Shown piece after piece: positions 45,610-52,939 of a DNA stretch of 64,000 nucleotides. Every line of letters begins with the position of its first letter. Position 1 is the stretch's first letter. The notes beneath the pieces are model-generated. The model worked only from the letters and a program-made list of their open reading frames with translations. It was not told where the DNA came from and made no database searches. The DNA is from Candidatus Promineifilum breve. GTDB taxonomy: Bacteria > Chloroflexota > Anaerolineae > Promineifilales > Promineifilaceae. A program made the translations under genes and the position numbers. The stretch covers positions 186,001-250,000 of the forward strand of contig NZ_LN890655.1 in assembly GCF_900066015.1 (NCBI RefSeq), given 5' to 3'.

Positions 45610-46971
45610 CTAGCAGCCCAGTATTTCCATACCACCCATATAAGGCCGCAGCACGGCCGGAATACGAATCGACCCATCGGCCTGTTGGTTATTTTCCAGC
45701 ACGGCGATCATCACCCGCGGCAGCGCCAGACCGCTGGCATTGAGCGTGTGGGCGAAGCGCGGCCGGCCGCCATCGGCCGGACGGTAGCGCACGTTGGCCC
45801 GCCGCGCCTGGAACGCCTCGCAATTGCTGGCCGAGCTGACCTCCAGCCACTCCCGGCAGCCGGCGGCCCATATCTCCAGGTCAAATTTCTTGGCCGCGGC
45901 AAAGCCCAGATCGCCGGTGACCATCTCGATGCGCCGGTAGGGTAGCTCCAGGGCCTCGCAGATGTCGGCCGCGTGCTGCACCAGCTGATCCAGGTGCTCA
46001 TAGCTGGTCTCCGGCGTGGTGAACTTGTACATCTCCACCTTGTCGAACTGGTGGCCGCGCTTGATGCCGCGCACGTCGCGCCCGGCGCTCATCTTCTCGC
46101 GCCGGAAGCAGGGCGTGTAGGCCACGTAGTTGAGCGGCAAGTCGGCCTCTTCCAAGACCTCGTCGCGGTGGATATTGGTCAGGGCGATTTCGGCCGTGCC
46201 CAGCCACATGAAATCCTCTTCAGCGTCGCGGTAGATATTATCGGCGAACTTGGGTAGTTGCCCCGCGCCGACGAACATCGCCGACCGCACCATGAAGGGC
46301 GGGTAGATCTCGGTGTAGCCGTGGACGTTGCCGTGAAAATCGAGCATGAACTGGATGATGGCCCGTTGCAGTCGCGCCCCGGCCCCGCGCAGCACGTAGA
46401 AACGCGAGCCGCTCATCTTGACCCCGCGCTCGAAATCGATGATCCCCAACGCCGGGCCGAGGTCCCAATGCGCCCGCGGCTCGAAGTCGAACGCCGGCAG
46501 GGGCGCGCCCTGCGGCGGATAGGCGATGTTGTGGCTGTCGTCGGGGCCATCGGGCACGCTCTCGTGGGGCAGGTTGGGAACCCACAACATCTGCTCGTCC
46601 ACCTCGGCCTCCACCCGGCGCAGTTCTTCCTCCAGCCCCGTGATGCGGTCGCCCAGGCGGCGCGTCTCGTCCCTGGCCTCGTCGGCGTTGAATTGTAGGC
46701 CGGCTATCTGGGTCTGGAGCGTGTCGCCGGGTTGGCCGCCGGCCGTGGCCCGGCCTAGATCGCCTTCCAGCTTCTTGAGCGTCCCCAGCCACGCGCCGAT
46801 CTGCTTCGAGCTTTCGTTGCGCTGCCGCCGCAGTTCTTCTACTTCCTGGATGATTTCCCGGCGGCGAACATCGGCGGCCACGATGGCGTCGATGGGCGCG
46901 CTGTCGCCCAGGCGGCCGATCTGGGCCTTCACCCATTCCGGCTTCTCGCGGATCAAATTGATATCGATCAT
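45610..46971 (-). CDS. serS: Seryl-tRNA synthetase
   Basis: Charges tRNA-Ser (and tRNA-Sec where present) with serine. The N-terminal coiled-coil arm begins with MIDINLIREKPEWVKAQIGR and runs to about residue 110. Class II motif 2 is visible as YTPCFRREKMSAGRDVRGI, and motif 3 near the C-terminus as the segment around FAHTLNASGLALPRVMIAVL. Length 453 is usual. ATG 46971 is preferred because AGGAG lies 5 bases upstream. Expression is governed by a T-box leader and a consensus promoter upstream. Confidence 0.98.
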   Translation of the reverse strand: MIDINLIREKPEWVKAQIGRLGDSAPIDAIVAADVRRREIIQEVEELRRQRNESSKQIGAWLGTLKKLEGDLGRATAGGQPGDTLQTQIAGLQFNADEARDETRRLGDRITGLEEELRRVEAEVDEQMLWVPNLPHESVPDGPDDSHNIAYPPQGAPLPAFDFEPRAHWDLGPALGIIDFERGVKMSGSRFYVLRGAGARLQRAIIQFMLDFHGNVHGYTEIYPPFMVRSAMFVGAGQLPKFADNIYRDAEEDFMWLGTAEIALTNIHRDEVLEEADLPLNYVAYTPCFRREKMSAGRDVRGIKRGHQFDKVEMYKFTTPETSYEHLDQLVQHAADICEALELPYRRIEMVTGDLGFAAAKKFDLEIWAAGCREWLEVSSASNCEAFQARRANVRYRPADGGRPRFAHTLNASGLALPRVMIAVLENNQQADGSIRIPAVLRPYMGGMEILGC

Positions 46972-46985
46972 GTCACTCCTCAATA

Positions 46986-47233
46986 GAAAAAGCCCCCTTC
47001 GTTTCCAGGACGAAGGGGGCTCGTGGTGCCACCTGGGTTTGCCGGGCCATATCGGCCCGGCCTCTGGTGCGCGTTAACGGGCGCAGCCGGCGCTCCTTAT
47101 TCGCAGTGCGTTGCGGAGCGCAACTCGGGAGGGGATTTCCGGCGCGCTGGGCATTGGCTTGCACCGTCCGCCAACTCTCTGTAACCCGCGATGCCGTACT
47201 TGTCTCCGTCAAAGTCGATGTCGGATTCAATTA
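46986..47233 (-). promoter_or_regulatory. T-box riboswitch (serine) controlling serS
   Basis: On the minus strand the leader shows T-box landmarks in order. They are AAGTAC and AGAGAG in stem I, the GGTGCAAGCC apical region, a specifier loop GGAAATCCCCTCCCGAGT with the Ser codon TCC (complement of 47133-47135), and the T-box AGGTGGCACCACG (47022-47034). The terminator is AGCCCCCTTCGT, a 7-base loop, its complement (46991-47021) and a T-run. Uncharged tRNA-Ser should pair at the specifier and at the T-box and favour the antiterminator. Confidence 0.88.
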
Positions 47234-49374: not shown

Positions 49375-51003
49375 ATGAATCTTCGCTTGAAACCATTACC
49401 CGTCCTTTTCGGCCGTTCCCGTCCCTGTTTCCCCTTGTTATTGCTGTGCATCACGCTGGGGCTTCTGGCCGCCGGTTGTGGTGTGGATTTAGCTAACCCG
49501 CCCCGGCTGGCGACGGCCACGGCCCGCGCTGCCGCACCACCCACGGCCGCGCCGGACGTGCTGGTGTTGCCCGCGCCGACGACGACTGCGCCGGATTCCG
49601 CCGCGATTGGCGTCAACACGCCGGCCGCGCCCATCACCGATACCGAATCATCGGACGCTCGCCTGACTATCTGGGTCGATGAGACCTCGCCCGAACACCA
49701 GGCCGTGCTCGATCAAATGGCGGCCGACTTCGCCGACCGCCACGGCATCGACGTGGCCGTGCAACTGGTGTCGCCGGCGCTGTTGCCCGATCTGGTGACA
49801 ACGGCCGTGCTTTCGGCCACGCTGCCCGATCTGATCCTGCATCCGGTGGAATACACCGCGGGCTGGGTTCAAGACGGCATTCTGGATGCCGCCGCGGCCG
49901 AGACGGCCATCGCCCAACTCGGCCGGGATACATTCGACCCGGCGGCGCTCGACCTGCTGACGGTCAACGGCCAGGCAGGGGCCATCCCCAGCGACGGCTA
50001 CCACCAACTGCTGCTCTACCGCGCCGACTGGTACGCCGAGCGCAATCTGCCGCCGCCCGACACCTACGCCGCGATGGCGACCGCCGCCGAAGCTGTCTTT
50101 GACAGCGAGGCGATCATTTCCGGGCTGGTCATCCCCACCGAGTCCAATCTGGTCACCACCCATCAGGCCTTCGAGCAAATCGCTCTGGCCAACGGCTGCC
50201 GCCTCATTGACGATGCGGGCGAGGTGGTCATTCTGGATGAGGCCTGTCGCGTGGCGATTGAACACTATTACACGACCATCAATCGCTTCAGCCCGTCCGG
50301 CGTGCAGACCGATACCAGCGCCCGCAACGCGCTGCTGGAAGGGCGGACGGGCATGATCGTCACCTCGCCGGCCATCCTGCCCGATCTGGCGGGGTTGAAT
50401 CCGGCCGTCGTCCCCTCCTGCCCGGAGTGCGAGGCCGGCGAGGACGGCGTGAACTTCCTGGCCCGCAACGTGGGCATCCTGACCGAGATCGCCGGGCCGG
50501 ATGGCGCGCCAACGGCCTTCGGCAACGTGCGCAGCCTGGGCATCACCACCACGGCCGACCAGGCCGCGGCCCTGGCCTTCGCGCAATACTGGTTCGAGGA
50601 AGGGTATGCCGGCTGGCTGGCCGTCAATTCGGAGCGCAAGGTTCCTTTGCGATGGGGCACGGCCGGCGCGCCGCGGGCCAACATCGATGCCTGGGGCCTG
50701 ACGCCGCTGGGCGAGAGCGGCTTGACCATGACCGACCTGTACGGCGCGGAAGCCGTGGCCCGGCTGCGCGACGGCATCGCCGCCGCTCCCCGCTGGGGGA
50801 TACGCGAGGGGTACGGCGCGCTGATGACCCGCCTCTACGATGAGTTGATCATATCGATTGTGTTGCAGGAGATGCTCTCCGGCTACTTCAACACCGAGAC
50901 GACGCTGCGCGAAGCCTACCGCCGCACGATTGAACTGATCCCCAACTACGCCTTTCCGGTGCTTACGTTTGAGGAGTTGACCCCCACGCCGGAGCCGAAT
51001 TGA
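49375..51003 (+). CDS. Extracellular solute-binding lipoprotein (ABC sugar-type)
   Basis: The signal peptide ends in the lipobox LLAAGC, so the Cys near residue 36 should be lipidated and the protein held on the outer face of the membrane. A Thr/Pro/Ala spacer of about 50 residues follows. The mature part begins RLTIWVDETSPEHQAVLDQM, the usual opening of family 1 solute-binding proteins for sugars or oligosaccharides, and includes a MITSPAIL-like region (GRTGMIVTSPAILPDL). Length is 542. No permease or ATPase gene is adjacent, so it is an orphan component whose transporter lies elsewhere. Confidence 0.88.
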   Translation: MNLRLKPLPVLFGRSRPCFPLLLLCITLGLLAAGCGVDLANPPRLATATARAAAPPTAAPDVLVLPAPTTTAPDSAAIGVNTPAAPITDTESSDARLTIWVDETSPEHQAVLDQMAADFADRHGIDVAVQLVSPALLPDLVTTAVLSATLPDLILHPVEYTAGWVQDGILDAAAAETAIAQLGRDTFDPAALDLLTVNGQAGAIPSDGYHQLLLYRADWYAERNLPPPDTYAAMATAAEAVFDSEAIISGLVIPTESNLVTTHQAFEQIALANGCRLIDDAGEVVILDEACRVAIEHYYTTINRFSPSGVQTDTSARNALLEGRTGMIVTSPAILPDLAGLNPAVVPSCPECEAGEDGVNFLARNVGILTEIAGPDGAPTAFGNVRSLGITTTADQAAALAFAQYWFEEGYAGWLAVNSERKVPLRWGTAGAPRANIDAWGLTPLGESGLTMTDLYGAEAVARLRDGIAAAPRWGIREGYGALMTRLYDELIISIVLQEMLSGYFNTETTLREAYRRTIELIPNYAFPVLTFEELTPTPEPN

Positions 51004-51077
51004 GCGAATGGCAAAAAAGGTCTATTCTCGGTCAAAATAGCCCAATCTTTCCGCGAAAAATTGGATGATCCTATTGC

Positions 51078-51106
51078 TTGACGCGCGTCTCTCAGCATGT
51101 TATGAT
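51078..51106 (+). promoter_or_regulatory. Promoter of the aromatic-biosynthesis operon
   Basis: TTGACG (51078-51083), 17 bases, TATGAT (51101-51106). The transcript would start about 51112-51114, only a few bases before the leader-peptide ATG at 51116. Confidence 0.68.
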
Positions 51107-51115
51107 GCTCCCACT

Positions 51116-51220
51116 ATGAAAGGTTCACCGACCAATTTGGTCAGCTTCTTTTTCTTTTATTTTGGCACCGACACCCAGCCGCACTTGTTGCGAACGGGAG
51201 AGTCCGCCATGGCCGGCTAA
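51116..51220 (+). CDS. Phe/Tyr-rich leader peptide (pheL-like) of the aroH-DAHP synthase operon
   Basis: A 34-codon open frame starts at ATG 51116 and stops at TAA 51218-51220. Codons 11-16 read FFFFYF, five Phe and one Tyr in a row, which is the signature of a leader peptide that senses charged tRNA-Phe (and perhaps tRNA-Tyr), as in enterobacterial pheL. The predicted transcript begins nearly at the ATG and there is no ribosome site, so translation would be close to leaderless. A terminator follows at 51262-51286, ahead of two aromatic-pathway genes. The frame is too short to prove by coding statistics; context and composition are the evidence. Confidence 0.68.
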   Translation: MKGSPTNLVSFFFFYFGTDTQPHLLRTGESAMAG

Positions 51221-51261
51221 GAAGCACAAGCCAAACGGAAAGAACCCCAAACGAGACAAGA

Positions 51262-51286
51262 CGCGGCTGAGCAAGCCGCGTTTTTT
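51262..51286 (+). terminator. Attenuator terminator before aroH, with a matching antiterminator segment
   Basis: CGCGGCT (51262-51268), loop GAGCA, AGCCGCG (51274-51280), then TTTTTT. CAGCCGC at 51176-51182, just beyond the Phe codons of the leader peptide, is the exact complement of GCGGCTG (51263-51269) in the terminator stem, so the two pairings exclude each other. The same segment can also pair with CGGCT at 51214-51218 near the peptide stop. The rest of 51004-51330 holds no other gene. Confidence 0.78.
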
Positions 51287-51330
51287 GTTTTATAAATGGC
51301 ATTTATCAGGAAGGATCAAAGAGGGATATC

Positions 51331-51807
51331 ATGGCAAATCAGACGACGCAAAATGGGACAGGGCCGGCGCGGGCGATTATGTGCCGTGGGGTGCGCGGGG
51401 CAATCACCGTGAGCAGCGACAGCGAGGACGAGATATTGGAGGCCACGCGCGAGTTGTTGCAGGCGATTGTCGCCGCCAACGGCATCAACATCGATGACGT
51501 TGCCAGCGTCTACTTCACGACGACGACCGACCTGACCTCCACCTACCCGGCCTATGCCGCTCGCCAACTGGGCTGGTACGACGCCGCCCTGTTATGCGGC
51601 CATGAGATGGCCGTGCCCGGCAGCCTGAAAAAATGCGTGCGCGTTCTTATCCACTGGAACACGAGCAAATTGCCCAAGGAGATCGTCCACGTCTATTTGC
51701 GTGAGGCGCGCACGCTGCGGCCCGATCGCAAGACCATCCCCCCCATCCGGCCGCGCCAGATGAACCAGGTCGAAGCCGCCGTGCGCTTCCTGGCGATGAC
51801 CCTCTAG
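51331..51807 (+). CDS. aroH: Chorismate mutase, AroH class
   Basis: Rearranges chorismate to prephenate, the branch point to phenylalanine and tyrosine. The AroH-type fold is recognised from AIMCRGVRGAITVSSDSEDEI near the N-terminus, ASVYFTTTTDLTSTYPAYAAR, the segment CGHEMAVPGSLKKCVRVLIHW with the substrate-binding Arg/Cys region, and IVHVYLREARTLRPD. Length 158 is slightly longer than Bacillus AroH because of about 14 extra N-terminal residues. GAGGG precedes the ATG at 51331. Regulation by the Phe-rich leader attenuator fits its place in the pathway. DAHP synthase follows 106 bases later. Confidence 0.95.
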   Translation: MANQTTQNGTGPARAIMCRGVRGAITVSSDSEDEILEATRELLQAIVAANGINIDDVASVYFTTTTDLTSTYPAYAARQLGWYDAALLCGHEMAVPGSLKKCVRVLIHWNTSKLPKEIVHVYLREARTLRPDRKTIPPIRPRQMNQVEAAVRFLAMTL

Positions 51808-51913: not shown

Positions 51914-52939
51914 ATGATGATCGTTATTATGCGGGCAGAAGCGACCATGCGCGAAAAATCAGCCGTCATCGCGCGGGCGGAAGACTTTGGCTTCAAAGTC
52001 CATCTTTCCGACGGCAAGGAGCGCACCATCATCGGCATCATCGGCGACGATCGGGTGATCAACCGCGACCAGATCGAACGGATGCCCGGTGTCGAGCGTG
52101 TTGTGCCCATCCTCAAGCCGTTCAAGTTAGCCAGCCGCGAGTTCCGGGCTGAGGACACCACCTTCCCCCTAGGCAACCACACCATCGGCGGCGGCAACGG
52201 CATCGTCGTCATGGCCGGGCCGTGTTCGGTCGAGAGCCGGTCGCAGATTATCGAGACGGCCATCGCCTGCAAGGAAGCCGGGGCGCATGTTTTGCGCGGT
52301 GGGGCCTTCAAACCACGCACGTCCCCCTATGCCTTCCAGGGCATGGGCGAAGAGGGGCTGAAGTATCTGGCCGAGGCCCGCGAAGTAACCGGCATGCCCA
52401 TCGTCACCGAGGTGATGGAGCCGGCGCTGGTGCCGCTGGTCTGCGAATACGCCGACATCTTGCAGATCGGGGCGCGCAACATGCAGAATTATGCCCTGCT
52501 TCATGCCGTGGGCGAGTCGCAATACCCCGTCTTGCTCAAGCGCGGCATGAGCAGCCTGATCGAGGAGTGGCTGATGTGCGCCGAGTACATCCTGAGCCAC
52601 GGCAACACCCGCGTCATGCTCTGCGAGCGCGGCATCCGCACCTTCGAGACCTACACCCGCAACACGTTCGACATCAACGCCATCCCCGTCGCCAAGCATC
52701 TCTCCCATCTGCCGGTGGTGGCCGACCCCAGCCACGCCACCGGCAAATGGGAATACGTGGCCGCGGCGGCCAAGGCCTCCGTCGCCGCCGGGGCCGATGG
52801 CGTGATCATCGAGGTGCACCCCCGGCCCGAAGAGGCCATGTCCGACGGCGGCCAATCCCTGAAGCCGGAGAAATTCGCCAAGCTGGTGACCCAGATGAAA
52901 GCGATTGCCCAGGCCGTCGGCCGCGACATCGAAGCCTGA
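51914..52939 (+). CDS. aroF: 3-deoxy-7-phosphoheptulonate (DAHP) synthase, type I-beta with N-terminal regulatory domain
   Basis: Condenses erythrose 4-phosphate and phosphoenolpyruvate at the entry to the shikimate pathway. Residues about 1-70 ([18 protein letters not shown]) form the ferredoxin-like/ACT-like regulatory domain found in Thermotoga-type enzymes, which permits feedback inhibition by Phe or Tyr. The barrel follows with [60 protein letters not shown] and [14 protein letters not shown], including the PEP and metal ligands. Length is 341. Its product feeds the pathway toward the chorismate mutase encoded just upstream. Its TGA overlaps the ATG of the next gene by one base. Confidence 0.97.

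Follow-up and report, generated by a model that had tools for sequence, protein, structure and literature searches.

Predicted leader-peptide attenuators of aromatic amino acid genes in Chloroflexota, with a codon-matched aroH, pheS and tyrS set in one family

In Proteobacteria, the pheL-pheA and pheM-pheST loci of E. coli carry Phe attenuators. According to a 2010 survey, Proteobacteria and Actinobacteria were the only groups in which leader peptides had been shown until the Firmicutes his case that it presented (PMC2965389). In Actinobacteria, Phe and Tyr operons yielded no conserved RNA element in a comparative study (PMC1262725). Leaderless leader peptides have been annotated in Streptomyces lividans (leuL, trpL, ilvL, thrL and others; PMC8079986), and leaderless polycysteine short ORFs are known from mycobacteria (Canestrari et al. 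2020, as cited in PMC13236596). Neither attenuation mediated by the ribosome nor a leaderless leader peptide is therefore new as a kind of element. Here we describe a leader located upstream of aroH in a 64,000-nt stretch of Candidatus Promineifilum breve DNA (hereafter the window), from a genome of 5.03 Mb. We find it very likely that this element is a ribosome-mediated transcription attenuator whose signals are charged tRNA-Phe and tRNA-Tyr.

The leader upstream of aroH and its conservation

The leader opens with a sigma-70-type promoter on the plus strand (51078-51106), made up of a -35 box TTGACG (51078-51083), a 17-nt spacer and a -10 box TATGAT (51101-51106). It matches 10 of 12 consensus positions and has an extended -10 TG. 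The transcript is predicted to start at ~51113, 3 nt 5′ of the ATG (51116) of a 34-codon leader ORF, MKGSPTNLVSFFFFYFGTDTQPHLLRTGESAMAG, which extends on the plus strand to a TAA at 51218-51220 (ORF 51116-51220) and has a homologous aromatic ORF in 26 aroH leaders of the window's family. Codons 11-16 (51146-51163, plus strand) read Phe-Phe-Phe-Phe-Tyr-Phe (FFFFYF) and form the putative sensor. A short way 3′ of these codons lies the antiterminator strand CAGCCGC (51176-51182, plus strand), an exact complement of GCGGCTG (51263-51269). The latter is the 5′ arm of an intrinsic terminator (51258-51286, plus strand; stem 51258-51284, then a T-run) and is thus common to terminator and antiterminator. 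Promoter, FFFFYF frame, terminator and 7-base complement had all been named in a preliminary description of this DNA, and each was found where it had been placed. On folding, the leader RNA of the window was more stable than its own shuffles (z -3.2).

The terminator stands between the leader ORF and the first regulated gene, aroH (51331-51807, plus strand), which encodes a monofunctional chorismate mutase (PF07736, E 8e-45; TIGR01796, 135.7 bits against a cut-off of 82). The second gene (51914-52939, plus strand) encodes a DAHP synthase of the B. subtilis type with a ferredoxin-like N-terminal domain (PF00793 and PF18152; TIGR01361 and PRK08673 above cut-off).

The preliminary description had proposed that regions upstream of aroH be compared among relatives; that comparison showed the aromatic run and both alternating stems to be kept and the link to aroH to be conserved. 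An aroH leader that combines an aromatic run with a terminator was present at 26 of the 30 loci retrieved via AroH, the window's own counted; the relatives found in this way and bearing names are Promineifilum, Ardenticatenia and other Chloroflexota, and homology thus assigns the window to Chloroflexota. The upstream regions of some family aroH copies (L021, L023) had no detectable leader. Terminators of the 26 leaders are mostly of the form GACGCGGC...GCCGCGTCTTTTTT, with the arms CGCGG and CGCG invariant in all of them. The aromatic run is present in all family leaders found, in varying versions (FFFFYF, FYFYF, FYFYFYFF and others among aroH leaders), and the peptide outside it is divergent beyond the genus. 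Throughout, the leaders retain an open frame that begins at an ATG close to the promoter and contains the run in frame.

A covariance model (R1), built from the 26 family aroH leaders, matched 48 of 52 family genomes, mostly in 2 or 3 places each. Together with the recurrence at AroH loci, this places the arrangement far above chance. In three family genomes (L169, L174, L179), the element directly precedes the DAHP synthase gene and not aroH.

Codon runs of the aroH, pheS and tyrS leaders

R1 identified four elements in the window's genome. Besides the aroH leader, these are a pheS leader (C1:2758808-2758964, plus strand; MMNAPRSRSFFSFAFANMSRAATAETLCSA), a tyrS leader (C1:1167189-1167342, minus strand; MKRQLVHRFSYYGRQTTRPRRERA) and a leader (C1:2892382-2892534, minus strand; L150 / L269) that precedes a 104-residue protein of unknown family. 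This conserved protein had no Pfam or NCBIfam match; the fourth leader type (peptide FVF..DC), which includes L153, L184 and L195, occurs in four genomes of the genus. No leader was found for pheA (prephenate dehydratase) or trpE in the genus, where trpE sits behind a trpB-like gene (L114-L118) with no leader of this type.

A short leader ORF with an aromatic run was tabulated for 32 aroH, 35 pheS and 27 tyrS leaders, and codons were counted in the best nine-codon window of each. The pheS leaders held 164 Phe and 5 Tyr codons against 31 Phe and 87 Tyr in the tyrS leaders (Fisher p 4e-40, nominal only, since the sequences share kinship), and the aroH leaders held 139 Phe and 71 Tyr. Every tyrS leader had at least two Tyr codons in its nine-codon window, and 30 of the 35 pheS leaders had none. 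Codon identity fits the gene: Phe for pheS, Tyr for tyrS and both for aroH. The run had at first been read as a sensor of phenylalanine; this holds for Phe but not for Phe alone, as the element probably senses Tyr as well and has sister copies on pheS and tyrS.

Promoter, terminator and leader sequence are shared by the aroH, pheS and tyrS elements, which suggests that they derive from one another and that their codon runs were retuned in the process. The trio is a natural codon-swap experiment: one RNA switch, three runs, three genes.

The codon counts also bear on the idea of a general translation sensor or arrest peptide, in which the stall would result from the aromatic nascent chain or from a global slowdown of translation, and not from uncharged tRNA-Phe or tRNA-Tyr. 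Hydrophobic nascent chains rich in aromatic residues could make ribosomes pause, and an identical RNA switch would work. One conserved motif would be expected in that case, whereas the run shifts between Phe and Tyr according to the gene downstream and other parts of the peptide diverge, which makes such an arrest quite unlikely.

A T-box or riboswitch, in which the leader RNA binds tRNA or the amino acid directly and the ORF is incidental, is more improbable still. It is true that pheS and tyrS are often T-box targets in other bacteria, and that the window itself has a T-box before a serS-like gene. However, the promoter-proximal frame keeps its in-frame run in all leaders, and Rfam gave no leader family (Phe_leader or other) for 51000-51400 at the gathering score or at E up to 10, the latter returning unrelated sub-threshold matches only. 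The T-box model RF00230 had no match at the leader; within the window it matched 47003-47221 alone (minus strand, 117.8 bits). This T-box immediately precedes a minus-strand gene with its start at 46971, named seryl-tRNA ligase-like from its sequence. For serS, then, the genome seems to rely on a T-box, and for pheS and tyrS on leader peptides.

Covariation of two alternative helices and the proposed switch

The antiterminator is one of two alternative helices in the leader. The other, P1, joins a 5′ strand that overlaps the first sensor codons (51144-51150, plus strand) to a 3′ strand that starts inside the stop codon (51219-51225, plus strand), as placed by the MFE fold and by covariation. 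In the predicted folds, a local hairpin with the antiterminator strand sits between the P1 strands. RNAalifold on a MAFFT alignment of the leaders recovered the terminator only, probably because run length varies and misaligns the sequences; duplex tests of own against permuted partners were used instead.

One leader was taken from each of 18 genera, and the energy of the duplex with its own partner was compared with that formed with partners of other genera, in a permutation test that preserves base composition and ignores kinship between genera. For the antiterminator, the strand 3′ of the run was paired with the terminator 5′ arm and loop. Mean energies were -14.8 kcal/mol for own partners, -12.9 for cross partners and -11.5 for shuffled ones, and 0 of 20000 permutations were as low as the own mean. 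For P1, the codon run was paired with the region starting at the stop codon, giving -17.1 (own), -11.6 (cross) and -11.8 (shuffled), again with 0 of 20000 permutations as low. An antiterminator that excludes the terminator is therefore kept by compensatory change, as in L024, whose terminator carries GCGGTC and whose leader carries GACCGC instead of the GCGGC and GCCGC found in most other cases. The antiterminators of L028 and L010 pair over 9 and 8 bp, respectively, drawing on bases located at the terminator loop or next to it. Taken alone, the window's own P1 (L001) was no better than its shuffles, so that its support is comparative. In the sister leaders P1 likewise covaried (0 of 20000 for pheS and for tyrS), and the antiterminators did so more weakly (46 and 187 of 20000, respectively).

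Antiterminator covariation would be unaccounted for by a constitutive intergenic terminator with an unregulated short ORF upstream, a reading that is hardly credible even though such a terminator can simply stop read-through from the preceding gene, as the promoter lies 5′ of the terminator and the terminator-aroH interval holds only a 9/12 match overlapping the aroH start. Covariation and conservation together strongly support the original proposal of an attenuator with alternative terminator and antiterminator before aroH, for which stalling and the direction of the response would be as follows.

Transcription would start ~3 nt 5′ of the leader ATG, and a ribosome would load on the near-leaderless message, its translation presumably coupled to transcription. 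Under scarcity of Phe or Tyr, the ribosome would stall at codons 11-16 and cover the P1 5′ strand, leaving CAGCCGC free. This strand could then pair with GCGGCTG in place of the terminator, so that aroH and the DAHP synthase gene would be transcribed. When Phe and Tyr are plentiful, the ribosome would advance over the antiterminator strand to the stop codon. The terminator would form while the ribosome covers that strand, or after the strand refolds into the local hairpin and P1.

Ribosome states were modelled by folding transcripts that end just 5′ of the terminator 3′ arm, with different segments masked by the ribosome. Over the 26 leaders, mean antiterminator pairing was 0.53 without a ribosome and ~0.99 with a ribosome on the aromatic run; with a ribosome at the stop codon it was 0.79. 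In the window's own leader, equilibrium folding favoured the antiterminator in all three states, each near 1; the calculation therefore does not prove switching there and does not explain termination in plenty, for which a ribosome covering 51176-51182 or the kinetics of folding must be responsible. No other step of the mechanism is as weak as this one.

Distribution in the phylum and comparison with known systems

Outside the window's family, R1 gave a single weak match in 149 other genomes from the phylum, and the family-type element thus looks confined to that family. Aromatic aroH leaders of different sequence were found in Caldilineales, in Thermoflexus and Chloroflexus relatives, in Viridilinea and in ~12 more families. 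Their terminators differ (e.g. GAGCGTGGAGCGACC...), and the leader strand changes to match (GGTCGCTCC). Among 24 aroH leaders from other Chloroflexota lineages, the own duplex was at -19.5 against -15.9 when permuted, with 0 of 20000 permutations as low. Taken singly, 18 of the 24 were at or below the 5% shuffle level, and the antiterminators of L051, L047, L282 and L283 were not significant in this test. The AroH loci retrieved from Acidobacteriota and Dehalococcoidia were mostly without such a leader, and none of 28 pheS loci outside the family had an aromatic run plus a matching terminator. At three soil Chloroflexi aroH loci (L101, L102, L104), a near-leaderless ORF FAGFYFYAYLGPARDRLGMG occurs with no recognisable intrinsic terminator, and the output there is therefore perhaps different.

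The -10 box and the ATG are 6-9 nt apart in the first 25 parsed aroH leaders and 6-10 nt apart in ~96% of the family aroH, pheS and tyrS leaders. With a transcription start ~7 nt past the -10 box, the 5′ UTR would measure ~0-4 nt, which predicts a leaderless sensor mRNA. Such a near-leaderless sensor had initially been called unusual. The spacing behind this prediction is conserved, but the form is neither new nor unprecedented, since Streptomyces lividans has annotated leader peptides of this kind (PMC8079986). An ordinary 5′ UTR seems to be present in several aroH leaders of other Chloroflexota (e.g. Chloroflexus), and leaderlessness thus seems to be a trait typical of the window's family.

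Taken together, these leaders probably represent an unlisted class of aromatic leader-peptide attenuators that spans the phylum Chloroflexota. Within one family, the class would be predominantly leaderless and duplicated into a co-regulated, codon-retuned set of aroH-DAHP synthase, pheS and tyrS, including a Tyr-sensing tyrS attenuator. A literature search largely confined to papers outside subscription yielded no description of Chloroflexota elements of this type or of a Tyr leader on tyrS, in line with the preliminary description, whose author was aware of no Phe attenuator described for this phylum. Nor did the literature searched contain an aromatic codon-matched three-operon set in Chloroflexota; an earlier prediction of elements of this type may exist in the survey of Lopatovskaya et al. 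2010 (cited in PMC4833913), which lies outside that literature. The elements would extend leader-peptide attenuation to Chloroflexota and to tyrosine sensing. The predicted leaderless sensor lets one ask whether ribosomes without a Shine-Dalgarno site track RNA polymerase closely enough for attenuation.

Like the mycobacterial polycysteine ORFs, likened here by the citation in PMC13236596 alone, the Chloroflexota element is a short ORF, leaderless by prediction, proposed as an amino-acid-responsive attenuator; the mycobacterial ORFs sense cysteine and belong to another phylum. With the S. lividans attenuators it shares the lack of a 5′ UTR (predicted here) and a position before amino-acid and aminoacyl-tRNA ligase genes, but the S. 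lividans leaderless set has no Phe or Tyr member (PMC8079986). T-box leaders similarly couple tRNA charging to termination before aminoacyl-tRNA ligase genes, whereas sensing in the present leaders, which have no Rfam T-box match, is proposed to occur by translation of codons. The E. coli pheL-pheA and pheM-pheST systems resemble the Chloroflexota element in their Phe-codon leader peptide, in the alternation of antiterminator and terminator, and in having Phe biosynthesis and Phe-tRNA ligase as targets. The element differs from them in phylum and sequence, in its predicted leaderless start, and in its targets, which are aroH with DAHP synthase, plus tyrS. It also differs in architecture: the antiterminator strand lies between the P1 strands, whereas in E. 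coli it is strand 2 of the 1:2 hairpin.
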